A stretch of 64,000 bases of DNA from Nemania diffusa (lineage: Eukaryota; Ascomycota; Sordariomycetes; Xylariales; Xylariaceae): positions 124,001-188,000 of the forward strand of contig JBBPUQ010000008.1 in NCBI GenBank assembly GCA_038501195.1, given 5' to 3'. Positions 3,308 to 37,557 of the stretch are shown here, in pieces (positions within the stretch are counted from its first letter, which is position 1; every line of letters starts with the position of its first letter). The translations under genes and the position numbers were made by a program. The notes under the pieces are model-generated. The model worked only from the letters and a program-made list of their open reading frames with translations, made no database searches and had not been told where the DNA came from.

Positions 3308-4991
3308 ATGTTCAAATTACAGAGCCAGCGGATGTTCGAAAATAGCAGATGGGTTCCTAATCGGGGAAGTCTTGCCTACTTAGAGGCCGTGCAATATTCT
3401 ACAGGTAAGCAACGTCACAAAAAAGCAAAGCGTTTCTCAACCTGATCTCGCTTTTTGGAAGACGAAAGACCATCAAACGAAATCCTCCAGGGCTATCTCT
3501 ACGATCATGAATTAGAGGATTGGCTTCACCAACGCAATAAATTCGAGGCGGATTCATTGCCCACAATTCGGCTACTTTTTTGCGACCGCATAGGGTGGAA
3601 ACCTCTTGGATTTGCAATGTCGGGATCTTCATTCATTACCCTTGAAGAACAGTTCAGTCTAGGGCACCAAGTCCTCCCTTTACTCTCTAAAAACGCAGGC
3701 CAGCACTCATGCTGCCTGAAATACGTCAGAGATCGCGACACATTAGAGAGCCTTGGTAATGTCACCTTCTCAACTTGAACTAAGTTCCCCTCTTTACTAA
3801 GGCCATCTCACATTAGAATTCACTGTAAAGTGGCCACAGATGTATCAGATAGGCAACTGTGGCTTTGCTCTGAGATATGATTTCCACGCAAGAAGAACAG
3901 TATGCTTTGCACACGGTTGGGACATGGTTATTCAAACAGATGCAGTCCCAGCTAGGGAAGGATTCAAATCGTATTTCGATGAGATAGAAAAGCATATGAG
4001 GCCGGCAAAGCGCTTCTGGTCTCATCCTTTGTTCTTACCCACAGTGTTCCTGGCCGAACATATCTCAAGAGCAAATAGATTCAGGGCCAGCCTCTCATCA
4101 CAAGTTATACAACTAGAAAAAGAACTCGGCATTACGAAATCGGGACAGCTTTCATGGAAAGAAGCTAAAACATTCGAGGCTATCCAAAGATTGATATCGG
4201 ACCGCCAAATTCGAATGAACCTAACAGCCGAATTAAACTCGCGGATTACGGACACCACTAATTTCATAACCACATTGGCGTGGATGAATCGGCATTGCCA
4301 GTTTCTGGAGAAATACAAGGATGTGGTGCAAAATTTGAATCCTCATCCCGATCAGAATGAGCACAGGAAGTTGGAAGAGTACTTAAATTGTCTAATCGAC
4401 AATGCCATTTCCATGACCTCGAACGTCGATGGACTTAAATCGAGACTCGAGCTACAGCTTAGTGTTGTGAGAAAGAAGCTTCGCCCCATATATATGATAG
4501 ATCTACTAATAGCACCATTTTGACTAGTTGTACAATTTTGTCGCCCAAGTCGACAACGATTTAAACGTTCGGATGGCTTATCGGGCTGGGCTTGATGGTA
4601 CGGCAATGAAGACACTCGCCTACGTCACAGCTATCTTCCTACCACCAACTTTCGTAGCTGTAGGTGATTAAGCACTCATTTCTGGAAGAACTGCTAATAC
4701 TCTTCGTGCTTTCAGACAGTGTTCAGCATGTCCATGTTCGACTGGCAGGCATCAACAGGGTCCCAAGAATCAGTGGTGGTAGTCCCTGACTTCTGGATTT
4801 TCTGGGTGGTCAGTGTACCCTTGACGCTCGTTGTCTTGGTTGGCTGGCGCTATTGGTTGTACTTTGAGAAGAATGCGCTTCAAAGCGAGTACAACGTGCG
4901 ACAAGCGGACAAGCAGTTTGGCCGCGTGAGACGGGCGAATTATGCTGAGGACTCTAGCAAAGAAAAGGTATACACCGTGCCCAGGGTATAG
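3308..4991 (+). CDS. CorA-like (Mg2+ transporter-like) membrane protein
   Basis: Exons 3308-3404, 3462-3755, 3817-4466, 4528-4659 and 4716-4991 join in frame to 482 residues. All four introns (56-61 nt) are GT-AG, and several carry CTAAC/CTAAT-type branch sites. The C-terminus has the CorA-like layout: a helical segment with VDNDLNVRMAYRAGLDGTAM, then TM1 (about 375-397, KTLAYVTAIFLPPTFVA) running straight into FSMSMFDW, a 20-residue loop and TM2 (about 417-440). Fungal CorA-like proteins commonly carry a diverged sequence where true CorA has GMN; here the position reads FSMSM, so Mg2+ transport is not assured. The N-terminal 300 residues match the large cytosolic domain of this fungal family in general pattern (FALRYDFHARRT, then SHPLFLPTVFLAEH). 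The gene looks intact. Confidence 0.85.
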
Positions 4992-6064: not shown

Positions 6065-6842
6065 ACGCAGATCCAAAATATTTGGCGCTTGTATGGCCTC
6101 ATCGCAGCCATACGAGCCCTCGCCCAAGACAATGACATCCCTGACCTAATATCTGATGGTCCTTTTGCTTTGCGCGTTAAAGGGAGAGGTTGCAATAGCT
6201 CGATTGACGGTGAGACATAAGCGGCATGTTTATAAAACAATGCAAGTATCAATAATGCTAACAAGACTGTGCTAGGCTACCTCTACACTGTCGCTCCCTC
6301 TTATCCTCAGCAACAGCTGTTCCTAAGCTATAACGCAGGATCTGCCCCTGTAGCGGACAATTCGTCTTACCGCTTTTACTTCAACTACACCGGGAGGATG
6401 GAGTCAGGGGATAAACAGCTGGGATTTTTCGTTTCGGACATCACAGTTGGAGAACCGAATTCCGTCGGCCTAGTGGGTAAGGCTATGTCCTTGGAGTACA
6501 GGCCGAATACCAATGTTGCGTTGCCGGTATTCGGTGCGAGCGCGAGTATTGTTGATCTTACTGGCTTCGATGAGGATCAGAAAGCATTCCTCAATTACTA
6601 CACCGACGACATGACGTATAGCGCGAATCAGCCGGGAAACTTCAGCTTGGACATTAACTATTGTAAGTTTATTAGCTTGGATGTTGATGAAGGAGATCTG
6701 CTAACCGACATTTTCAGATAATTGGGCGGTATGCTGGCAAACCTACTATGCTATTTCCGGACCTGCTTTATCATGGGTTACCACCGGCCAACCTCACAAC
6801 CCAACTTGCGAACTTGTCGACCTACTTAGGACTGGCTTGTAG
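6065..6842 (+). CDS. Small putative secreted protein of unknown function; start codon not visible
   Basis: Exons to 6209, 6276-6662 and 6718-6842 are joined by two clean GT-AG introns (66 and 55 nt, the first with branch site ATGCTAAC). They encode about 210 residues beginning with a hydrophobic stretch (GLIAAIRALAQDN), followed by an Asn/Tyr-rich beta-type protein with conserved-looking segments such as DLISDGPFALRVKG, GFDEDQKAFLNYY, NNWAVCWQ-like YNWAVCWQTYY and PHNPTCELVD. The pattern resembles a family of fungal secreted hypothetical proteins; this is from memory and not checked. No in-frame ATG precedes the hydrophobic segment. An ACG at 6065 stands where an ATG would make a normal signal peptide. 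It is either a start-loss pseudogene, a non-ATG start or a gene with an undetected 5' exon. Confidence 0.6.
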
Positions 6843-7822: not shown

Positions 7823-8873
7823 CTAATGATGAGTGCCATGGGAGCCGCTTTTAGTGCACTTACTATCTTCCCGTACTTTGTAGTTCTCCTCCGCAATCCT
7901 CAACACATCCATGTCTAGATCGACAACAGACATGCCCTCCGCAGGACCTAATCGTCCTAATGCTCCGATATGTGGAACACAGACTTGGCTAAGGCCTGCG
8001 AAGCTTGTGTTATCCCCTTTCTCAGGTGGACCACCAGCGTTGACGAATACAACGGCGCATGTGTTTTCGAATGCGCGAGCCACGACTGTGCTGTTAAGAA
8101 ACAAGGCCTCTCCGTCTGGGTTCAGGGCGTAGCCCTCATCTACCACATCTCGCATAGTCCAGAACGACGGAACACAGATAATCTGCGCGCCATCCGCAAT
8201 GAGCTCCCGGAATGCCTCGGGAAAGGCCAAATCCCAGCAGATAAGCAGGCCCATGCGACCAAGAGGGGTGTCGAAAGCCTTGTGAGGTTCGTGAGTCGAT
8301 GATACGAGGTGGCGCCGCTCTGGGTGCCATAGGTTCTTTTTCTGGTATCGCGCACCAATCTCACCATTCGCCGAGATGAAGTAGGCGTTATTCTGCAGAG
8401 AATCCCCTTCAGGTACGATAATTGTCCCCGGAATGATGCAGACATTAAGTTCTTTTGCCAAGTCCTGATATTTTTGTATGCACGAAAAAGACTCCGCACA
8501 TGAGGCCTTGAAGCCCGGCTCATCAGGGACCCATGATGTGAGATGGTATTCTGGTAACACGACTAGGTGACAACCTTTAGCAGCAGCATCTCGTATAAAT
8601 GATATCGCTTTCTCGAAGTTTTGAGTTGGCGATAATGGCTGTATGAAGTGTAAGCAAGTGTGAGACGCATATAGGTTATATATAAGTAGTGCATGGAAAT
8701 ATGCAGCTTATAGTAGCACAAAGAGGGGTGTTCCACTTCACCAGGGCCCCGCGGACAGATTGAGGGGGGTATAGGGGGCGCTTCGATACACAAATCGCCA
8801 TTATCTATAGAGTGGGATGAGCACTCACCTTGGGGTGAAGCTGCACTAATGCGATCTTGTAAATGGGTGCCAT
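7823..8873 (-). CDS. Carbon-nitrogen hydrolase (nitrilase superfamily)
   Basis: Two exons, 8873-8829 and 8638-7823, give 286 residues. The ATG at 8873 opens MAPIYKIALVQLHPK, the usual first beta strand of this family, and the donor GTGAGT follows directly. The Glu-Lys-Cys triad is visible: E45 in VVLPEYH, K115 in YQKKNLW and C149 in LLICWDLAFPEA. It should hydrolyse an amide or nitrile of a small molecule in the cytosol; the substrate is not predictable. The 190-nt intron is long for this locus. The gene lies upstream of two UstYa-like genes on the same strand, with 412 bp between, so it could be an accessory gene of that cluster or just a neighbour. Confidence 0.88.
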
Positions 8874-9285: not shown

Positions 9286-10364
9286 TCACCTAATCATTTT
9301 GATACCTGGCCCGTTATCTCTCGCCTCCCAACCCTTGAGTTCTCTCTGAAACGCCCATTGTTGGACATCCTCGAAATTCCTGCAAGTTGCAGGAGTACGA
9401 TGATAAAGTATCAACCATTCCTCAAATGGAGCTCCTTCATAAGGAATCCCTGCTTCCTTTTTCCACACCGATGCAGCAGTATTGCTTGCGCACATAATTC
9501 CTTGTAGAAGGCGGTCGACGCAGTCTGTACTCAATAGCAATTAGTCCCAATAAATGCACTAGCAGAAATATCAAGGAGGTTCCGCATACGCTGTACATGG
9601 CGGAAAATTTCTTTCTTAGGATTTCCATTCTCATCATAGGGTGAGAATTTTGGCATGTCTCGGGTATAAAGAGTACGCCTGATAGTATCCTACCAAGTTA
9701 TCAGTAAATGTGAATCTACTTATTTTTTAACGATAGTTGTCTAATAACTTACTAGGCAGTGTAGTTGATGAAACATTTCTAGATTGATTAGATGCTCCCC
9801 GTCTGGCAGCTCGAATGTTTCGTTTGACGTCAACTTCTTCATTTCTTCACGTGAAACTCGGGTTGCAACACCACCTAGATTGGGATTTAATTAGTCAACC
9901 TTTGGCATACCGTAGAGTCTGTAAAGATTACATACGGTGGTAAAGGTCATGCCACATCTTATTTCTCGCTGCTGTTGGCGGACCAGCATATCCAGTAGTA
10001 GATAATGTTGTTGTCCTGTATGAGACAGCTGGCTCGGCAGGTGCTGCAAGCAGTTAAATTCACCAAAGCAAGTAAAATATCGCTACAACATTGACGTACA
10101 ATAGACTGCTAAAGTAGGGTCCTGTCCCTTAGACCTAATTACAACAAGAGCAATCGAGGCCCCAATTGCAAGAGTATAGAGTATGCCAAGATGGAGGATA
10201 TGCCAATAACGCTTCTTGTAACTCCGATGATCACGAAGCTGATATGTATAACCTTCGACCTCTGTGGAGTTCGTTGATCGAGAAAGAAGGCTTTTCTTGT
10301 CCTCTTTCAGGTCAATATCGGACGTTACGTCCTGGCTGTCGCTTCCGGGCATTTTAGGGAACAT
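9286..10364 (-). CDS. UstYa-like (DUF3328) protein 1
   Basis: Five exons (10364-10100, 10043-9936, 9874-9753, 9689-9590, 9524-9286) give 277 residues; all four introns are GT-AG, 56-65 nt. Layout follows the family: a polar N-terminus, one TM helix (about 54-76), a YSPAEPAVSYRT segment, a GPP motif before WHDLYH, then the two signature motifs MFHQLHCL and HVQHCVDRLLQGIMC. The second motif is split by the last intron (the CAC codon spans the junction), so exon joining is well constrained. In ustiloxin, phomopsin and asperipin pathways UstYa-type proteins act in oxidative cyclisation of the ribosomal peptide; both HxxHC-type motifs are present here, implying an active protein. Function here is inferred from family and from the precursor gene nearby. 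Confidence 0.9.
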
Positions 10365-11897
10365 TTGATGGTGTGGGGACAGAAAATATAATTTTGAAGG
10401 CCAAATATAAGATCAAAGATTGAAATCAAAAAGAGAAGCAAGGCAAGCGATGAAGATAATTTAAGAGACGAACGGAATGAAATGGATGATAGAAGGATAG
10501 AATTGGATTGATCTACCGACAAAATTAAGACCATCGCCCACCTTCATGAAAAGATACAATTATCTAGAGATCACGTTGCATCGTCTAATCCTAGGTATCC
10601 TTCTTGACGCTGAGCTCCCGAATTCGTTTCTACTTCAAATATTTCAATCGCATGGCTTCAACGATCGCATCAAGCCTAATCGATAGCCAATCGGAACTTT
10701 TCACTGTCGTTTGGCTCTTTTCCACAGGCTACGTGTATCGTGCAAATATGTGGCACAGCTTAGACAACTGAAATCCGAGTCTCGTGAGTCTCTGTATCAC
10801 ACTACCAATGTATTATGTTAGATATATAATCTCGCTCCAGCCCTCCAAGAGTCTGCTTTAAAACGATGTGCATATTATGCAGTAAGCTGCAGCCGGTATC
10901 CCTTCCCGTGTTAAGTCAATAGGCTACTCCCTCACTTTTGATCATACGATGTGATAGTGTTATCCCTATAATCAAGCCTGCAGTCTTATTTTGGACTCGG
11001 CTGTGGCACTCGGTTGGCAGCCCCGGCTTACAAAATCGCGGGGCAGACTTCGACACGCTATGTAGGACTTATTGCATCATCATGACCTTGTGATCGAGAT
11101 CGTAAGAAAGGAAAGCCCAAAGATAATTGAAGATAAGCGGTTGCGGTGTAGTCGTCGGGCTTAATTTCCCTTTCTAGTAATTACGTTACACTCGCCATGA
11201 GATTGTAGTTATGTACGGTTCTACTTTGGCGCCGCTTCGTTGCCACTTCGGTGCATATGCAGAATGCATTGAGAGGGGCGACTGGTGCTATGTAGCTTCC
11301 AATAGTCTATAGGGAATTACGCATACCCCCGAGCGCCTCGCCCCATGGGACCTCAAGCGGAAAGAAGTGGGACAACAAGATCATAGACGTTGATGGGGTC
11401 TGCTGAGGTCCTGGCCAGGCCAGATGGGCTATTACTGCAACAGCCTATAAGATCCAGGAGCAAATGAAAGCCTCCAGGCCTGCAGTAGTTTCACTGCATC
11501 TATCTTTGCGAAAGCGGTCAGTTTTGCATGATCACCTGCATGCTGACTGATACATAGCTATGATGCCTACACTATGAGGTTGAACTCGATGCGCATAGCT
11601 ACCGGAACAGGATGACGGGGAATAATGCTCCATTAATGAATCCTAATGGATGTTGAGGGAAACACGTGAACATGGATCCAAGCCAAGGGACTCGGGACTC
11701 GGGAGGATCATACACTAGTGTGCCGCCAGCCTTATCTCAATCAAGCTTTGTGGGGACGCATATGCAGCTTCTCGCGACAAAAGACCCTACATATAGATCT
11801 CAATGTGGAGTAGCATTAGGGAGAAGAACTGTATACCCCTGTCATAGTTTGCTACCTAGTCAAAGTGTCTTGCATACTCCAGAACATATCATCCCAG
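10365..11897. other. Gap between the two UstYa-like genes
   Basis: About 1.5 kb. No protein-coding gene could be supported; the frame at 11666-11920 (+) has no family features and overlaps the 3' end of the next gene. The first 200 bp should hold the promoter of UstYa-like gene 1. No tyrosinase, methyltransferase or transporter was found here. Confidence 0.45.
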
Positions 11898-12961
11898 CTA
11901 CGGCGGGGTTGGCATATTGATGATTTCCTGTGTCTTGGTGACTTGTTGTCTCATTGGCGCTTCCCTCTCCTTTGCAAGTGCCAGTATTTCCTCGGGGTCT
12001 CTACATGAATGCCATGTATTAAAATCAGGATATGCGACTGGATTACCCGCCACCCAGTGAAACGTAATCAAGCCGGTATCACCACTGCACATTATCACTT
12101 GTCGGATAATCTCTAAACAGTGGTCTTTTACATGGCCAATTGTCAGTTTTGTTTTAGCGTAGAGAAAATCTAGCAACTGCACACACCGATATGGTTTTTC
12201 TGGATTTGAATAGGTTTGTCAAAAACGCCACCGGTGTTTTTGTAGTACGGGTATTTATGGAAGGTGAATTTGCGCACCAAGTCCTATTGATGTCAGTGAA
12301 CAAGCACAACGCTCAAGTCGCCCTCTCTTACTAGGCAATGTAGCTGATGAAACATTTCGAGGGTGGCCATCATTCCTCCACCATTCGCATCTCCAAGCTG
12401 CACCGTAGAGTTGAACCATTCATCTCCTTTATCTTTTCTTGCTGACTTGACTTCCTCATGCCCTACGCTGAGCACGACCGCCGTGCCGTCCACCCAAGCT
12501 AGATAACAATGAGCGAGCGTTTTTAGAGATCGGAAAATTCTTCTGAAGAAGGCGCTACTAACGGCTCGTTGTGAATCTGGCCCATGCAGCGTCTATTTCG
12601 GGACTTGGAGGTCCTCTATAAGGTGTAATAGATTCAAAACTGCCTAAAAACTTGACATTCTGACGCAGGAATTTAGTAAATCCTGGGGTGGCTCTCGGAA
12701 TGTTAGCTTTTCTCGCTGTAAGGACCCAAATCCGAAGGACTTACACCAATCTAATGGCGCTTGGCACTCGTAAGAGCCAGCAAGATAAAATGCAATAGAA
12801 CCGAGGACAAAAAATGTCGCGCTGCATAAAAAGACAAATCCATAAATCCAGTATCGTCGCTTCGGGCGCTGTGGCTGGGCTGGTTTCGGAGATTCGGCCT
12901 CATCTATGCTCAGTTTCTCATAGCGATTTGCTCGATGTTGAAATTTGATGAATGGATTCAT
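11898..12961 (-). CDS. UstYa-like (DUF3328) protein 2
   Basis: Exons 12961-12745, 12715-12563, 12498-12332, 12283-12187 and 12136-11898 would give 290 residues. One TM helix (about 37-62, YWIYGFVFLCSATFFVLGSI) follows a basic N-terminus. Then come ITPYRGPPSPEIDAAW, the first motif EMFHQLHCL and the second GHVKDHCLEIIRQVIMC. Introns 1-3 are GT-AG. Intron 4 (12137-12186) has a good donor and a CTGAC branch sequence, but ends in TTG instead of AG; without its removal the frame stops before the second motif. The gap of about 33 residues between the two motifs matches its neighbour only if this intron is removed. So it is either spliced at an unusual acceptor or recently damaged. It is divergent from the precursor gene. 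Confidence 0.8.
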
Positions 12962-13852
12962 GATTAATTGTGTCGATTTAGATACAAGCACTAAAATTCT
13001 GTACCAAGAGTTTTTGAATCCAAGTTGTTGAAAACCCAAGGTAAATAGAAGGGTTACCAATGGAAAAACGATAGTGGGATAGAGCTTGACCCCATCGATT
13101 GAACAGCATTAGGGCCATAACCATGGACATGTACTTTGTCTTAGGTGGGGAAACTCCATCAACTCCATTTTGGTGAATCATGATGCTGTGTAGGAAGCTA
13201 GAAGTGGCGCAAATGGGCATCTCATGATCAGTGCAACATCTGCATCTCACATACATTAGCGGCTTTAAGGCGACAATCAATATCTTTGGCTGTATCGTTA
13301 CATCGGACATCTGAATAGCGGCTAATCCTGTATATTTAAACCGTAGATAAACACTTAATCTTCTAAAGCATAATTTTCGAGCCGAATAGGAAGCTACTAA
13401 AGCATCACTGGGGGCACGACATAAGTAATGTCAACAAGAAGCACTTGTGATCTGACATGCAGCTAAAGCAAAAGTTTTCCGATTGGTTAGAGATATCAAA
13501 AAATTGATAATATGATATGCTAACAGGAAGAATGTTACATTAAAAAGTTATTTCGTTCAGGTTGAAGATCCGAGATTCTGGCAGAAAATGCAACGTTGGT
13601 ATAGATCCTTGAAGTCCTCAGTGAGCTGCATGATATTTCGTCATTGACAGCAGTGGTTGCGAATTCCATGGAAAGAAGCCAAAGCTACAGCAGATGTTAA
13701 TCTGATATTATACTTCCTCATCTATAAAGCATGGATTGTGTCGCTGAGTTTCATTGTTTAAGACGCGACTATTATCATCACAGTCTTCCTCATTAGGTAC
13801 ACCCAACAATTTCCTATCGGTTCATCCGTTTAATTTGACAACCTCTGTCAAT
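12962..13852. promoter_or_regulatory. Divergent promoter region between UstYa-like 2 and the precursor gene
   Basis: This 0.9 kb spacer lies head-to-head between a leftward UstYa-like gene and the rightward precursor gene, so both promoters must be here. The minus-strand frame at 12978-13310 has no recognisable domain and is taken as chance. A TATA-like TATAAA is at 13723-13728. I could not recognise a specific regulator site. Confidence 0.5.
13723..13728 (+). promoter_or_regulatory. TATA-like box of the precursor gene
   Basis: TATAAA about 125 bp upstream of the precursor ATG (13853). Position and sequence are plausible for a strongly expressed small secreted-peptide gene; there is no other evidence. 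Confidence 0.35.
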
Positions 13853-14220
13853 ATGAGATTTACATCCAAATCTGCAGCCCTTGTGGCCTTTCTCTACTGC
13901 GGTGCTGCTATTGCTACCCCTATCAGTGAGTCCTTGTTAAAGCTAATATTTGTTGTTTCAAGACTGATGATCCAACAGACAGAGCCGGCCCATCAGGGCA
14001 ACTGAACCACGTCGCGAATCGGGACACTGACGGACCCGTATCTTATTATAAGCGTGACACCGATGGACCAGTACTAGTAGGCTACTACGACCATGGCAGT
14101 GATGTCGAGCCTGAATCTAAGCGCGACACCGATGGACCGGTACTAGGCGGCTACTACGACCATGGCAGTGATGTCGAGCCTGACTATAAGCGCGATTCTG
14201 ATGGACCGGAAACATATTAA
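13853..14220 (+). CDS. Secreted Kex2-processed repeat precursor, candidate RiPP (dikaritin-type) precursor
   Basis: Two exons, 13853-13925 and 13979-14220 (GT-AG intron of 53 nt), encode 104 residues. The N-terminus is a signal peptide (about 1-21, ending FLYCGAAIA). After a short spacer come four units, each starting R-D-(T/S)-D-G-P: a short one ending VSYYK, two long ones (VLVGYYDHGSDVEPESK and VLGGYYDHGSDVEPDYK) and a C-terminal stub ending ETY. The units are separated by three KR dibasic sites, the Kex2 cleavage signal. Three units carry a YY pair; in known dikaritins (ustiloxin, phomopsin, asperipin) a Tyr-containing core between KR sites is cross-linked by UstYa-type proteins. Two UstYa-like genes lie immediately upstream. 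Not an alpha-pheromone precursor by sequence. The RiPP role is inferred; the signal peptide and repeats are seen directly. Confidence 0.82.
14053..14190 (+). repeat. Two tandem 69-bp coding repeats inside the precursor gene
   Basis: Units 14053-14121 and 14122-14190 are each 23 codons, and begin CG(T/C)GACACCGATGGACC. They differ at only a handful of bases; the central part encoding GYYDHGSDVEP is identical. A partial third unit starts at 14191. In-frame tandem duplication of this kind is how multi-core peptide precursors grow and shrink. Confidence 0.9.
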
Positions 14221-15580: not shown

Positions 15581-15871
15581 GTAAAAGACAGTGTCCTCAA
15601 CGTGGACTAAAATCTTATAAAGTGGTAGCACAGAACTATGTTCTCAAGGCTTTACTGCTTCGCCATCGATGTGTTATCGGTGCCAGCAATACCGGCAGAG
15701 GGTGAGAGGGTGTTCGGTAGACCCAGGTTAATACAATCGTCACAGCGGCTCAATATGACTATTAAAACCTTAGAAACGATGCACTGCTTACAGCACTGAC
15801 CCGGCGATGACACAGAGGCTATCTGGGCTGTGATAGATGCTGCTGACGGCGCCAACGAGTTTATGTGCGAT
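15581..15871 (+). mobile_element. Relic of a hAT transposase C-terminus (dimerisation region)
   Basis: Plus-strand reading with stops gives IKWW, then RLYCFAIDVLSVPAIPAEGERVF-like sequence and RLNMTIKTLETMHCLQH. This is the pattern of the hAT dimerisation domain (typically WW, then LA.D.LSIPA.SAE.ERVFS, then R..L....). Internal stop codons at about 15609 and 15798 show it is dead. The rest of the element was not recognisable, and no terminal inverted repeats or target-site duplications were found by eye. Confidence 0.65.
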
Positions 15872-24381: not shown

Positions 24382-25083
24382 TCAATCGACAGTGAGCAAT
24401 TGCTCGAAGAAACCACCAATCTGCTTCTCGCGGTCGACGAGATGAATCTCTAAAATCCAATGCCGCTGGTTCCCGTCCTTGCCCGGAAGTCTCATGCGCT
24501 CCTGGTTTCCCTCGGTGATGTACAGCGTCTTCTTGTCATTCGGGATGCGCTCGTGCGGGAACGAGCCAATAAGATGGCCGGCTATGGCACCGCCGAACTC
24601 CCACCCTTCCCTCTCGGCGGTGCGCCGCGCGGCGGCATAGAGCTGGTCGCCGGTCATGTCGGGGCTGGCGTCGAACTGGGCCTTGACGTCGCGCCACACG
24701 GGCTCGAGAGCGTCGCGCAGGCGGGTCTTGGCCGGGTCGGCGCCCAGCACGTAGGTGCGGCCGAAGTCGGCCTCCCAGGCCTCGAAGACGGGGCCGAGGT
24801 CGACGAAGAGGATGTCGTCGGCCTCGATGACGCGGTCGGGCGGGTTCTCGGCATACGGCTGCAGCGTGTTGGGCCCGCTGCGCACGACGCGCTTGTGCCA
24901 GTGCGTCTTGATGCCGTGGCGCGCGGCGCCGAGCTCGTGGATCTCCTTGCTCAGCTCCTTCTCGCTTACGCCGGGGCGGATCAGGTCGCGCGCGATCTCG
25001 TCGAAGAGCTGCAGCGCCTTGGTCTGCGCGTCTAGGAGCGAGACGGCCCGTGCTTGCTCGTGTGCATTTATGGTTTCTGCCAT
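24382..25083 (-). CDS. M24-family (aminopeptidase P/methionine aminopeptidase fold) protein, short form
   Basis: Intronless, 233 residues from ATG 25083; an in-frame ATG at 25161 would add 26 residues of poor quality. The dinuclear-metal ligands of the pita-bread fold are all present in order: D95 in LFVDLGP, D106 in EADFGRTY, H170 in IAGHLIGSFPHE, E212 in LEIHLVD and E227 in FFEQLL. Only the catalytic domain is present; there is no N-terminal creatinase domain. It is likely a cytosolic Xaa-Pro peptidase or a related hydrolase; the true substrate is unknown. Codons are strongly GC-rich, unlike the AT-rich DNA on both sides. Confidence 0.85.
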   Translation of the reverse strand: MAETINAHEQARAVSLLDAQTKALQLFDEIARDLIRPGVSEKELSKEIHELGAARHGIKTHWHKRVVRSGPNTLQPYAENPPDRVIEADDILFVDLGPVFEAWEADFGRTYVLGADPAKTRLRDALEPVWRDVKAQFDASPDMTGDQLYAAARRTAEREGWEFGGAIAGHLIGSFPHERIPNDKKTLYITEGNQERMRLPGKDGNQRHWILEIHLVDREKQIGGFFEQLLTVD

Positions 25084-25440
25084 GATGTGTATATACGATG
25101 TAACACTGACCCCAAAGTGTGTTGTGAGGTGGTATTGGTTTTGCTGCGGATGCTCGCTCAACTATCTACCAGGTATCTATCTTGATAGTGAGCGAATGAG
25201 TGAGTCGAGGAAGAAGGTTCTATAGGTACCTACCTACAATAGATAGGTGCTCTGTAGTTACCAGTTACCCCGCACAACCCGAGATCGTCCCGCGCTATAG
25301 CGGACGGGCCGCCTGCATTGCCTCTGCATGCACCTGAAAGCTACCTTAGGGCGCCACCCCAGCGTATAAAAACAGACGTAAGCACTGTTTTGAAATATAG
25401 CTAAAGTGTGGTAAAACCGGATCATTGCGTCAGCCAAGTG

Positions 25441-28117: not shown

Positions 28118-29926
28118 CTAGATTAGAACCGGCCTAAAGTTGTCTACTCTCGCTAGTATCCAGTCATCCCACTCTAACTTACGTATATATCCGGTCCCAA
28201 TCAGCGAATACCTTGGCCAATGGAGCAATTGGTTGCTCTCTTCCCCATATTTTACTTCTTCTATGTGTTGCGGTCTCATACTTTGTGAGTTCTTTTCAGC
28301 TCGTAGAATCAACGGGGTCATATATGTCGGCTCCATACCAAGGAAGGACTCTTCTACTGGGGAGTAAAAAATATCGCCAGCCCTCATATGGCATGGGCCG
28401 ATCCCTATCAAGATAGACCCGAATTTACTGTATTGGAACGCCCGCGCAGTAAAGAAACACCGGTTAGCCATTGTAGTTTGAAAAGGATCCAGATCGACAC
28501 GCTCTAGGTAGTCGTCGGCTTCATCAAAATCATCCCTATCGTCGGGCCGGATACCTTGATAGAAAGGATACTCGTATGAGGTAGGCTCAGCCTCCATCGC
28601 CCATATAAAGTTACGCCAAAGCAAAAAGATGCTCAGGGACGTTACCTCGGGCGTCTGCTCCTTATTGAGGTGTCGATCCTGGGCCTCTAACGGTGCGAAA
28701 ACACTGTGTAGCCATCCTAATTGGGCCAATCGGTCACCATTTGTTGGAAATGGCACCGATACCTGCTCAATCTGGCCTTCCATACATTCTACGTTATTTA
28801 TCCTGACTGTCTCAGGTGCTGGGACGGGGTACGGCTGAAACTTTAGCCCGGTCAGGGTCGAGCCGCTCAATTCAGAGTACAGGATGGGAAGCCTCCAATC
28901 TGGCACCCATGAATAGACACCAGTCATACCGCGACCGTCAGATCGCCTGGTAGTCTCGAGGAGCAGGCGTCGTGTCTTCGTATCATCATCACCACCTTTT
29001 ACGGCCACAGCAAAATCCAGATATACCTGTTCTACGCTTTTCGTGTAGTCAATGCGCACAAGAATCTTGTTTCCATCCTCTGGTGTTGGTTGGTGGAAAA
29101 CTACATCATTGGCGAGACCCGCCAGTGCGTAAATCCTGTCACGCCCATCAGCGCAATCTGTGGCTGAAAAGTTTGATAGGAGATCAAGGATTCCCATTTC
29201 CCGACCCTCGGACCCCGTGTTGCTAAAGGAGCTTGTGCGCGCGTGGATGTTCCATAGCTCCTTTAGGGTGAGCAGGTGCGAAATGGGCGGTGACGGATTC
29301 TCTTTAGAGACATGATCGAACAGCTGAACTATCCGAAGCCATGCAACAGATGCTGTACCGCCGTAAAATGTGACGTTTGGATTCAAAACCACTTCTTGTA
29401 TAACCCATCGTCGGCTAAACCACGAGAGAGAGACGAGCTCTGTGAGAGCGGAGGTAATGTTGGCCAAGTCTGCCGCCTGGCTACTTTTCTTTTTCTGCGA
29501 TAAAAGGGCAATCTTGCGCAGGCAATCTTCCCCTTTTGGATGTTTCCCTAGCCAAACTAGGACGGAAGATGCGGACCGGTATATTTCGGTCATCAGCGGC
29601 ACTTGTCTCCGTTTGTCATCTTCGTCGTTCTGGTTAATGCAGATCGCATCAACCCAGATAGAGCGCGTTCCGACGGCACAGCTATATCGAATCAATGCGT
29701 CGTGCAGATTAGGGGTTATACGGAGGCGAAAATGGTCGTCAATGATAATCTCTTGGGTAAGATTCGGCTCTCCCCAGGTGTACGAGATGGCATCGTAGAA
29801 GGGATCGATCTCTAGATTCACGCAGCGGAATTTACCACGAAGTGGCGCGCTCGTGTCTGAGGCGGGGTAAAGCTCGAGGACGCGAGTATCGTAGTCTTCG
29901 GATAAGGGCGTGTAGATGTATGCCAT
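28118..29926 (-). CDS. HET-domain (heterokaryon incompatibility) protein
   Basis: Intronless, 602 residues from ATG 29926; an upstream in-frame ATG at 30067 gives an unlikely 47-residue extension. The HET domain occupies about residues 35-190 and has its hallmarks: YDAISYTWGEP, RSIWVDAICINQNDEDDK, QVPLMTEIYRSASSVLVWLG and RWVIQEVV. The GRDRIYALAGLA and VYSWVPDW segments typical of the downstream part of such proteins follow. HET-domain proteins mediate nonself recognition and regulated cell death on hyphal fusion. The partner and allele specificity are unknown. No NACHT or WD repeats are present. Confidence 0.93.
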   Translation of the reverse strand: MAYIYTPLSEDYDTRVLELYPASDTSAPLRGKFRCVNLEIDPFYDAISYTWGEPNLTQEIIIDDHFRLRITPNLHDALIRYSCAVGTRSIWVDAICINQNDEDDKRRQVPLMTEIYRSASSVLVWLGKHPKGEDCLRKIALLSQKKKSSQAADLANITSALTELVSLSWFSRRWVIQEVVLNPNVTFYGGTASVAWLRIVQLFDHVSKENPSPPISHLLTLKELWNIHARTSSFSNTGSEGREMGILDLLSNFSATDCADGRDRIYALAGLANDVVFHQPTPEDGNKILVRIDYTKSVEQVYLDFAVAVKGGDDDTKTRRLLLETTRRSDGRGMTGVYSWVPDWRLPILYSELSGSTLTGLKFQPYPVPAPETVRINNVECMEGQIEQVSVPFPTNGDRLAQLGWLHSVFAPLEAQDRHLNKEQTPEVTSLSIFLLWRNFIWAMEAEPTSYEYPFYQGIRPDDRDDFDEADDYLERVDLDPFQTTMANRCFFTARAFQYSKFGSILIGIGPCHMRAGDIFYSPVEESFLGMEPTYMTPLILRAEKNSQSMRPQHIEEVKYGEESNQLLHWPRYSLIGTGYIRKLEWDDWILARVDNFRPVLI

Positions 29927-31294
29927 GAGTCTCGCTCTGCTTTCTAGGTAATAAGATAATAGAGAAAAATGAGGACGATTATGAGCTGTGGTTAACCTAA
30001 TTGCAAATACCGTTTCAATTGAATAAAGTAAATAAACCATCCGAGGCTTCCTGTAAGGCATACACACAAGGTTGATTGGAGCAAATTCATCACGTGAAGC
30101 TTACTATAATTAAAACCAATTCAATGTTGCTGCTATACGAACTTCTTAGGTGTGAGGGCAATACAGCGTGGACTAAATACCTAATATATTATTTGGGTTC
30201 AATTGTTTGCAGAATAATGACGGTTTAAAAAGATTTATAAAAAAAAATCTAAAAAAATCAATCGACAGCTCAGAATTTGGGTGGGGGAACCAGAATCCTT
30301 CGGAACAAAGGGGATCCTTCTAGTTAGACAATCTACAGGACCTAATTTACCCCCTATATTTGCAACATTAACAGGTCCATCGAAGATGACCCCGCGCGGA
30401 GTTGTCTGCATAAGACTCACATTTCATTTCTACGAATACAGAACTTTACAGATATGCTTATAAAAATTCAGATTGGAAGTAATTGTCGAAAGGATAAACA
30501 GTAGTTTAAGTTGGCTGTCAATTCGTTCGCTTCTAAGTATCTATACCTATGAACGAGCCTCTACTCATGTGTCAGCGAGCTAATTCTAACATTCGAATGG
30601 CGTGATAGATACTTGGATAGTATTTAAAGTCTACGTTAAAGTCATGCCTAGACCTAAGATCTCAATATATTGAAATGTGCTGTGTACCAAAACCTTATAA
30701 AATCTCTCTCGCCCGGAGACCGCATCAGGAAAGGTGTGATTAACAATTTGTAACCATTCACGAAATTGAATCGCTATGTCGACCTCATCGCCGCCCCTGA
30801 CAGCATAGCTGCTACTAGCACACCCTATCTATTTTAGCTCGGATTCCCAACTACGCAACTGAATATCTAATTGTAGACTAGATACTCTCGTGTTTTAAGG
30901 TTGCAAGATAGTTGCGAGTACCTGGGTTGGCGCTGACTGGTGATGAGCGCAATTTGGGCAATGCCGAATACCCGCATTACATTGTTTCTAGTTGAAGGTA
31001 TGACTTTTACATAAATGATAAACTGAATAAGTCGTATTAAGACGAGGATTATAAAACATTAAGAAATAGCGGGTTAAAGCTAGTTGATGAAGTAGGTATG
31101 TTTCACAGTTTTTAAGTAAAGTAATGAGGGCTAAATTGTAAATAAAACATGGAACAAAACACTTTGCCGATAAAGAGATATCATTTACTACCTACAAAGG
31201 AAAACTTCTCATATAATGTATGCATACTCAGCTACACGTACGACTTGAAACTTTGAATCTATCCACGCACAGCTTCACCATAGCTCTTGCCAGT
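29927..31294. other. Intergenic, no gene seen
   Basis: About 1.4 kb of AT-biased DNA between two minus-strand genes. No open frame with protein features; the proximal part holds the HET gene promoter. Confidence 0.45.
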
Positions 31295-32275: not shown

Positions 32276-32651
32276 GGTAAGTGTTTGTAATAGTAAATAA
32301 GGGGAATGGTCAAAGTAAACAAGTATTCTCGAAACTACCAAACACTTGTGATTCTTCAAAAAGAAACCTGAGGTTGCCTATGAGGAGATCTTTAAAAATT
32401 CCAATGCTCCGAATTTTCTGCCAAGTACGGGTCTATTTATTACTTTCAGAAACCTGAGAAACAACCCAGTTGTGTTTCTAAAGCATCTCATTGTTTCTCA
32501 TACTAGCGGTCATAAAGAATAGTATAAAAGAAAGTAAATCCTTTCTTTCACTAAAAGTCGAAGATCCTAACAGACAGCATAAGGAGATATCAGCTCGAGT
32601 TGTGAGACAGGCTCTTTGTATTCAGTCTCATTGCAGCCTATTTTTAGCAAC

Positions 32652-35770: not shown

Positions 35771-37557
35771 ATGAAGGGCTTGACTCTAGGTAAAATCCGG
35801 GCCTACTGGCTCGGCTCCATCGTGTGTTTTGGTGGTTTCCTGTTCGGTTATGATAGCGGCATGTAAGTGTATGTTCTCGAAGACCCGATTGTCAGTTTGC
35901 TAACATATCACAGCGTCGGTCTGTCCTCATCGCATCCCGTGTGCTCATTCCGGAACCTACACTAACAGGAATCAGGTGGCGTATTAACACTGACATCTTT
36001 CCAAACCGATTATCGCTACGGTAGTGGCACTGCGACACGCACGAGCTCCCTGTCAGTTGGGCTGCAACAGCTGGGTGCCTTCGTGGCCTGCTTCCTCGCA
36101 TGGCCTTTGACAGATAAACTCGGACGCAAGAAAGCCCTAATGCTCGCCGCCTTTGTGTTCATTATTGGGGCAATAATTCAAACTATCAACACGCACTCGC
36201 TAACCGCATTTTACATTGCGCGCGTCATTGCAGGATTAGGCCTCGGCACTGCAACGGTCGTGGTGCCAATGTTCAACAGTGAAATGATGCCGAAGGAGCT
36301 GAGAGGGCAGGTCGGCTCCTTTTTCCAATGGTTCTATACTTTCGTACGGAGCATCTCTATTCTCCTAGGCCTTTGAGTGCTTGTGTTAACTATGCTAGGG
36401 AATCTTCGTGTCGTACTTCGTTGATTACGGCGTCGCAAGGGGTATCTCGTCCCACCGGTCCGCTCAATGGCAGGTCCCAATCGGGCTCCAAATTGCCCCT
36501 GCGGCGATCTTGGGCTTTGGCATGCTCACACTTCCGGAGAGTACGCGTTGGCTCACGAAAAAAGGTCGTCATGATGAAGCGTGGGAAAGCCTCCGGTGGA
36601 TCCGTGCCGACAGCTCCCGAGCCACGATCGAAGAAATGGAAGAGATCCGGATGGGCGTAGAAGTGGAAGCTATAGCTACTGAGGGTTTTCAATTCAAAGG
36701 CGAGTTAGGTTTTTGAGCATTCTCTAAAATCATATACTAATAGTATTATAGAACTTCTAGAAGGGGAAAACTTCAAGCGCGTCCTGGCCGCCTTTGCTGT
36801 CTTTACCGCTCAACAGGCAACAGGCGCCACGGCATTCGCATACTTCGGTCCGCAATATTTCAAGCTGATTGTCGGCAGCGGAGATCGAAGTTTGCTAGTA
36901 ACGGCGATTTTCGGCGCCATCAAAGTGGTAGCCTGTGGTACGTTCGTTCTCTGGTTCTCGGAGCGTCTATCTCGTCGCCAAGTCTTGATAGGGGGGGCAA
37001 TAGTCATGAGCGCCTGTCAGATCACCACAGCAGCGGTAGTCAAGTCCTTCCCGGCCCCCGCTGAGCAGCAGGAGTACGTGAGCCCTCCAGCTATCGCCAC
37101 AATCGCTCTCATCTACCTCTTCGTTATCGCCTACAACTTTAGCTGGGGACCGATGCCATGGCCTTATGTATCCGAGTAAGTGTTACTACCTAGCATCCGA
37201 ACTGTGCCCGGAACTGGCCGAATAATAACTGGTGCCACTAGGATATTCTCTGCACGCATTCGCGAACCGGGCATTGCAATTGGCGTGGCTTCGCAATGGC
37301 TCTGGAACTTCGTCTTCTCGCTCACTACCCCTTATATGATCGCCTCGCTTGGGTGGGGGACATTCTTAGTCTGGGGTACGTCTTGCGCTCTATAATTATC
37401 TACCTAAGCGTCATGCTAATGCCCACTAGGTATCTTCGATCTGGTCATCGCGTGCTTCACTTTCTTCCTCCTTAAGGAGACCCGAGGCCTGTCACTTGAA
37501 CAGATAGCGCAATCACGCTTCAGAGCGCATAGCTCATCTGATGACTCGGTGAAATAG
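35771..37557 (+). CDS. MFS sugar-porter family transporter (quinate permease-like)
   Basis: Seven exons: 35771-35862, 35914-35918, 35976-36343, 36399-36699, 36752-37175, 37242-37375 and 37430-37557. They give 483 residues with about 12 hydrophobic segments. Sugar-porter signatures are visible: GGFLFGYDSG in TM1, DKLGRKKAL between TM2 and TM3, PESTRWLTKKGR after TM6, and ETRGLSLEQ after TM12. The GGVLTLTSFQTDYRY start and FGIFVSYFVDYGVARG look most like quinate/sugar permeases. It should be a plasma-membrane proton symporter for a sugar, quinate or a related compound. Two oddities: a 5-nt micro-exon (35914-35918), and intron 4 (36700-36751) that fits only GC-AG ends. The gene otherwise looks intact. 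Confidence 0.92.

Follow-up and report, generated by a model that had tools for sequence, protein, structure and literature searches.

A probable minimal, tyrosinase-free dikaritin-type RiPP locus with a pair of UstYa-family oxidases in Xylariales

The window analysed here, a 64-kb stretch of DNA (C8:124001-188000 of a 55.6-Mb, 16-contig genome), carries a gene for a precursor of the KEX2-processed repeat protein type together with two genes, g1 and g2, for oxidases of the UstYa family (Table 1). As the sequence-only reading of this DNA had proposed, the precursor gene stands head-to-head with one UstYa-like gene, which is g2, and the second, g1, lies close by. The two genes g2 and precursor are divergently oriented, and the 891 bp that separate their start codons may serve both as a control region. 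Because the introns are short, raw reading frames mislead for all three genes.

Table 1. Coordinates of the three genes and of neighbouring features (positions within the window)
Feature	Position	Strand	Details
g1, UstYa-family oxidase, 273 aa	10352-9286	-	5 exons: 10352-10100, 10043-9936, 9874-9753, 9689-9590, 9524-9286
g2, UstYa-family oxidase, 278 aa	12961-11898	-	5 exons: 12961-12745, 12691-12563, 12498-12332, 12283-12187, 12124-11898
Stretch between start codons of g2 and precursor	12962-13852	.	891 bp, intergenic, divergent
Precursor gene, KEX2-processed repeat protein type	13853-14220	+	104 aa, 2 exons
Precursor exon 1	13853-13925	+	
Precursor intron	13926-13978	+	53 nt, GTGAGT...CAG
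Precursor exon 2 (repeat exon, incl. stop)	13979-14220	+	units DTDGPVSYY, DTDGPVLVGYYDHGSDVEPES, DTDGPVLGGYYDHGSDVEPDY, DSDGPETY
Carbon-nitrogen hydrolase ORF, neighbour of g1, possible member of the locus	7823-8707	- (as g1)	PF00795, 113.1 bits
M24 peptidase ORF	24385-25161		~10 kb from precursor; Pfam, 32-ORF set
Sugar-transporter ORF	36709-37176		~22 kb from precursor; Pfam, 32-ORF set

The precursor protein opens with MRFTSKSAALVAFLYCGAAIATPIN, has an N-terminus that looks signal-like by hydropathy and by eye, and then reads DTDGPVSYY-KR, DTDGPVLVGYYDHGSDVEPES-KR, DTDGPVLGGYYDHGSDVEPDY-KR and DSDGPETY. The earlier description of a secreted protein of 104 residues with KR-bounded, Tyr-rich repeats is thus accurate in its length and its repeats (four related units, three KR, nine Tyr) and needs amending at one point: KR precedes three of the four units, while the first is preceded by NR, both here and in the two homologues discussed below. 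Two longer alternative introns would also preserve the frame of the precursor; we chose the 53-nt intron because both homologues read ATPINKAGPSGQ, which matches this splicing apart from one residue. Across the window precursor and these homologues, P0001 and P0002, every unit contains a Tyr pair except the C-terminal one, which has a single Tyr. A scan of the window for repeats with KR detected the precursor as the sole ORF, a cruder repeat score added one weak ORF (32281-32454), and a search of the same genome for a second copy of the precursor found none at E <= 10.

That both enzymes are UstYa-like (DUF3328) had been suggested from the letters, and the family search agrees: the spliced proteins match PF11807 (UstYa) at 113.7 bits (E = 1.5e-32) for g1 and 160.9 bits (E = 5.3e-47) for g2, against a cut-off of 25 bits, and UstYa is the sole Pfam match of each. 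Both carry two HxxHC motifs, HQLHC and HVQHC in g1 and HQLHC and HIDHC in g2, the second being interrupted by an intron in each case (9589-9525 in g1, 12186-12125 in g2). In the raw frames the second motif appears to have been lost, being missing from g1 and reading HVKDHC in g2; we rejected this loss, since removal of the canonical introns restores HVQHC and HIDHC with no base changed. A first intron of 29-37 nt in g2 was likewise ruled out, as a 53-nt intron (12744-12692, with CTAAC near its end) yields DWSTPGF as in homologues. The two proteins have 70 identical residues over 246 aligned positions, and in each the most hydrophobic 19-residue stretch is close to the N-terminus, beginning at residue 54 in g1 and 42 in g2. 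An alignment of 49 of the 84 homologues shows no variation at the H and the LHC of motif 1, at the first H of motif 2 or at one later Cys, and conserves the HC of motif 2 in at least 90% of rows. In a 46-row alignment from which three rows with defective public models were removed, the H and C of both motifs are invariant, although the 49-row figure is the fairer one because the 46-row set was chosen. Two HxxHC motifs as annotated occur in 69 of the 81 proteins of the tree set, both window proteins counted.

AlphaFold models of relatives, P0017 of N. abortiva for g2 (mean pLDDT 80.4) and P0003 of X. longipes for g1 (72.2), each have a single long N-terminal helix and place each HxxHC motif within a helix. 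Foldseek returned 112 matches at E <= 10 for the g2 relative, which we regard as chance; none is a solved structure at E <= 0.001, so the fold of this enzyme may still be unsolved. We also dismissed as chance the nine PDB sequence matches of g2 at E <= 1, which are mostly phycoerythrin alpha chains (best E 0.0079).

What else lies around the three genes? A six-frame, exon-by-exon search with PF00264 found no tyrosinase in the window (26 matches genome-wide), so that the earlier statement of its absence from 7.8-16 kb can be extended to the whole window. A six-frame search for S41 peptidases, which occur in clusters related to phomopsin (PMC6514808), was also negative in the window (3 matches genome-wide). 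The absence of S41 peptidases thus holds for the whole window; the M24 peptidase ORF lies about 10 kb from the precursor. The Pfam scan of neighbours covered 32 selected ORFs (5 + 10 + 10 + 7) rather than every ORF of the window. Among these 32 there is no methyltransferase, no flavin monooxygenase or PLP enzyme of ustiloxin type, and no transporter, methyltransferase or dedicated peptidase adjoining the precursor. Amidase ORFs lie at 2-856, a hAT transposase relic lies downstream of the precursor at 15629-15796, and GC content is 41-49% across 9-16 kb.

The nearest protein relatives all belong to Xylariales (Xylaria, Nemania, Hypoxylon). A search of about 5.8 billion proteins returned two precursor homologues, P0001 from Hypoxylon argillaceum and P0002 from Nemania diffusa, both annotated "hypothetical", in which DTDGPVSYY occurs three times and twice, respectively, followed by DSDGPEGYYDHGSDLIPPYY and DSAGPETY. 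The first 39 residues of the window precursor are identical to each of them at 37 positions; the repeats, by contrast, vary in both number and type. The g2 protein, in turn, shares 225 of 235 aligned residues with P0018, a UstY protein of H. argillaceum for which the public model is short of one exon. With leader and g2 nearly unchanged and repeats different, the comparison with P0001 and P0018 implies that the cores change whereas the leader and the enzyme are retained. The closest homologue of g1 is identical at 236 of 273 aligned residues.

The g1 search gave 13 hits, 8 of them grouping with the window protein in one clade (support 0.999), and the g2 search 71, of which 11 do so (support 0.96). 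Seven of the eight g1-clade proteins apparently lie on one contig with a g2-clade protein, contigs being taken as identical when their length and species agree and the statement concerning the same contig, not adjacency; these pairs come from X. longipes, X. arbuscula, Nemania FL0916, N. serpens (twice), Xylariaceae AK1471 and Nemania NC0429, and P0004 is the one without such a partner. In H. argillaceum the precursor homologue and P0018 likewise lie, by the same kind of inference, apparently on one contig. These comparisons depend on public gene models and on shared 5-residue words, and a missing hit does not amount to the absence of a gene. Within the annotated proteins searched in this way, all three genes occur together in no genome besides that of the window: we found no precursor in the genomes bearing the seven g1 and g2 pairs, no g1 in H. 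argillaceum or N. diffusa, and no g2 in N. diffusa.

There are 52 UstYa exon matches in the genome of the window, and since UstYa genes are so numerous here, proximity to a precursor alone is weaker evidence than it might seem. In 25 other ten-kb stretches with UstYa matches we looked for 5-residue words that recur with KR separating the copies, and found six further precursor-like KR-repeat ORFs (L013, L018, L020, L025, L027 and L032), each about 1.2-2.9 kb from a UstYa match; an extra hit in L013 comes from reading that repeat on the other strand. When the demand for KR was dropped, for L014, L023 and L031 only, two more repeat ORFs appeared, of DNDAIWLWKK type in L014 and of TQIYTIDTKAAEVD type in L031, and even then L023 yielded none. 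A control of the cruder repeat score on reversed sequences produced 5 hits, compared with 10 on the real ones. The strongest of the 5 is the L013 repeat in reverse, and the next led us to the L014 repeat, which the KR scans had missed; these scans thus undercount precursors without KR.

How does the locus compare with known systems, as these are described in the literature cited here? DUF3328 is taken as the class-defining enzyme of dikaritins, and two HxxHC motifs mark RiPP-related DUF3328 proteins (PMC12048977). At our locus DUF3328/UstYa proteins lie near a precursor with KR repeats and a signal-like N-terminus, and each UstY protein has two HxxHC motifs, so that the dikaritin-type assignment made in the sequence-only reading is supported in the broad sense. 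Under the older five-gene definition (Ding et al., as cited in PMC12048977) the locus would not qualify, since the window holds no tyrosinase; the multiple DUF3328 proteins that this definition also asks for are present (two). The asperipin-2a locus (aprA/aprY/aprT/aprR) resembles ours in its Tyr-rich repeat precursor, its UstY-type oxidase and the lack of a tyrosinase among its four genes, and shows that a locus without a tyrosinase can support UstY chemistry (PMC6514808). It differs in having one UstY, a reductase, a transporter and the core FYYTGY, where we find two UstY proteins and the cores DTDGPVSYY and YYDHGSDVEP (PMC6514808). The set had been likened to a minimal one as for asperipin-2a; this fits as regards the tyrosinase, absent from both, but among the ORFs scanned Pfam gave no match to an AprR-like reductase or AprT-like transporter within 8 kb of the precursor. 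The ustiloxin B locus (UstA, UstYa, UstYb, UstQ) shares the KR-site repeat precursor and the UstY pair, but depends on the UstQ tyrosinase and also includes genes for a methyltransferase, flavin monooxygenases and a PLP enzyme (PMC6514808). The phomopsin locus also combines DUF3328 proteins with a repeat precursor, but has five DUF3328 genes, a tyrosinase and the core YVIP (PMC7329392). Epichloecyclins (GigA) likewise come from a secreted KR-repeat precursor, as cyclic nonapeptides from imperfect repeats, but a cross-link from Tyr to Ile is described for them (PMC9233826), and our units contain no Ile.

The same pairing of precursor and DUF3328 protein is familiar from the KEP survey of 2020, which puts the number of repeat precursors with a DUF3328 neighbour at 1758 (PMC7329392); with so many pairings counted, the arrangement is well known and the locus adds a new example of it. 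KEP type G-6 is Y- and D-rich and includes Hypoxylon, and a DUF3328 neighbour is present in 46 of its 49 cases; Hypoxylon and Monosporascus are among the genera with a DUF3328-associated repeat type (PMC7329392). The main text of three papers examined for it, PMC7329392 and PMC9233826 among them, does not contain 'Xylari'. So far as these sources show, the core family DTDGPVSYY / YYDHGSDVEP matches no described one and may be a new family, though it might correspond to a listed KEP type such as G-6.

Our analysis suggests that the gene set most likely makes small, chemically modified peptides from the repeat protein. The precursor would enter the secretory pathway, where the general Kex2 protease would cleave it after KR in the Golgi, releasing 9-mers of DTDGPVSYY type and peptides of about 21 residues that contain YYDHGSDVEP. 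The two UstY oxidases, presumably membrane-anchored, would then oxidise these peptides through an active site formed by their paired HxxHC motifs. The most likely modification would be a side-chain cross-link at the conserved Tyr-Tyr pair, giving cyclic peptides, and general peptidases would trim the ends. We infer this course of processing, and with it the product, from what is described for ustiloxin and asperipin-2a (PMC6514808, PMC9233826). Taken as a whole, we consider it highly probable that this is a minimal tyrosinase-free dikaritin-type RiPP locus in which Kex2-cut peptides are oxidised by the UstY pair, most likely to cross-linked or cyclic products; the peptides themselves are probably cyclic.

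DUF3328 proteins with non-cyclising roles exist. The UstY pair might modify the peptides other than by ring closure, for example by hydroxylation, so that the product would be a linear oxidised peptide, and two enzymes could well split two different oxidations between them; moreover, the homologues P0012 (from the g1 search) and P0050 (from the g2 search) carry a source name starting 'Cyclochlorotine b'. We nevertheless judge a linear product unlikely, given that a Tyr-rich KR-repeat precursor is closely associated with the UstY pair and that the characterised UstY proteins encoded next to precursors of this kind are required for cyclisation (PMC6514808, PMC7329392).

A greater departure would be for the precursor to yield unmodified secreted peptides, signal- or pheromone-like, with the nearby UstYa genes serving something else. 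Such a role gains some weight from the KEP survey, where 6120 of the 7878 KEX2-processed repeat proteins lack a DUF3328 neighbour (PMC7329392), but pheromone-annotated precursors there are, with three exceptions, without such a neighbour (PMC7329392), whereas here g2 and the precursor are divergent neighbours and their counterparts in H. argillaceum apparently lie on one contig. We therefore regard unmodified peptides as very improbable. Least credible of all is that the locus is a decaying remnant whose genes are out of use. The hAT relic nearby and the GC content given above could be read in this way, yet canonical splicing leaves an open frame in all three genes and an intact pair of motifs in both enzymes, and the identities of g1 and g2 to their closest homologues are as high as reported above.

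The reading that we prefer, in which the UstY pair oxidises Kex2-cut peptides, admits of a bolder form, which we put forward only tentatively and hold to be rather doubtful: that one UstY pair acts without a tyrosinase on two very different substrates, a 9-mer with Tyr-Tyr at its end and a longer peptide, of about 21 residues, in which Tyr-Tyr is internal, that the cores are rewritten between relatives with little change in leader or enzyme, and that the type of ring, for example a Tyr-Tyr link, is new to dikaritins. More generally, the locus offers a three-gene test case in Xylariales for what a UstY pair can do without a tyrosinase, in a set small enough to be easy to express, and its natural variants, with changed cores and a near-unchanged enzyme, let substrate tolerance be read from nature.

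Scanning 25 ten-kb stretches with UstYa matches in the window's own genome for repeated five-residue words with KR between them, we found six more precursor-like ORFs, lying 1.2-2.9 kb away from UstYa matches and differing in their repeats (for example SNDLISFKYPFKAAEGEAEKR, EADSDYIFIDLPDKR and ERQYQLVVSVHDIEEPAP).

KR-repeat ORFs in ten-kb UstYa-match stretches of the genome (L numbers), and other features of the window
Feature	Location	Remark
KR-repeat precursor-like ORF	L013:7237-7857	near UstYa match
KR-repeat precursor-like ORF	L018:6777-7178	near UstYa match
KR-repeat precursor-like ORF	L020:8099-8995	near UstYa match
KR-repeat precursor-like ORF	L025:2525-2914	near UstYa match
KR-repeat precursor-like ORF	L027:6959-7687	near UstYa match
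KR-repeat precursor-like ORF	L032:3246-3455	near UstYa match
Carbon-nitrogen hydrolase ORF	window 7823-8707	same strand as g1, adjoins g1
hAT transposase dimerisation-domain relic	window 15629-15796	PF05699, 22.2 bits
HET-domain (heterokaryon incompatibility) ORF	window 28121-30100	660 aa

The demand for KR was dropped in three stretches, L014, L023 and L031. Two UstYa matches in L014 flank a repeat ORF (4460-4906, -) with units D-N/S-D-x-IWLW-KK, rich in Trp and bounded by KK instead of KR; its product is possibly an unusual UstY substrate. L031 holds a repeat ORF without KR (6309-6668, +; TQIYTIDTKAAEVD, six times), which, together with a tyrosinase match (G000 contig C9:2506228-2506974), sits between two UstYa matches, so that this region of the window's own genome looks like a tyrosinase-type locus. 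Tyrosinase matches also adjoin UstYa matches inside L023 (G000 contig C3:4022895-4023625); no repeat ORF was found in that stretch, with or without the demand for KR.

Within the window, the hAT relic lies downstream of the precursor gene, and the carbon-nitrogen hydrolase ORF could be a locus member or an ordinary neighbour. In both UstYa-family genes, g1 and g2, an intron interrupts the second HxxHC motif (9525-9589 and 12125-12186, respectively), the two positions being one codon apart. Since the public models of the homologues P0016 and P0024 miss the DHCL part, annotation may hide intact UstY proteins.
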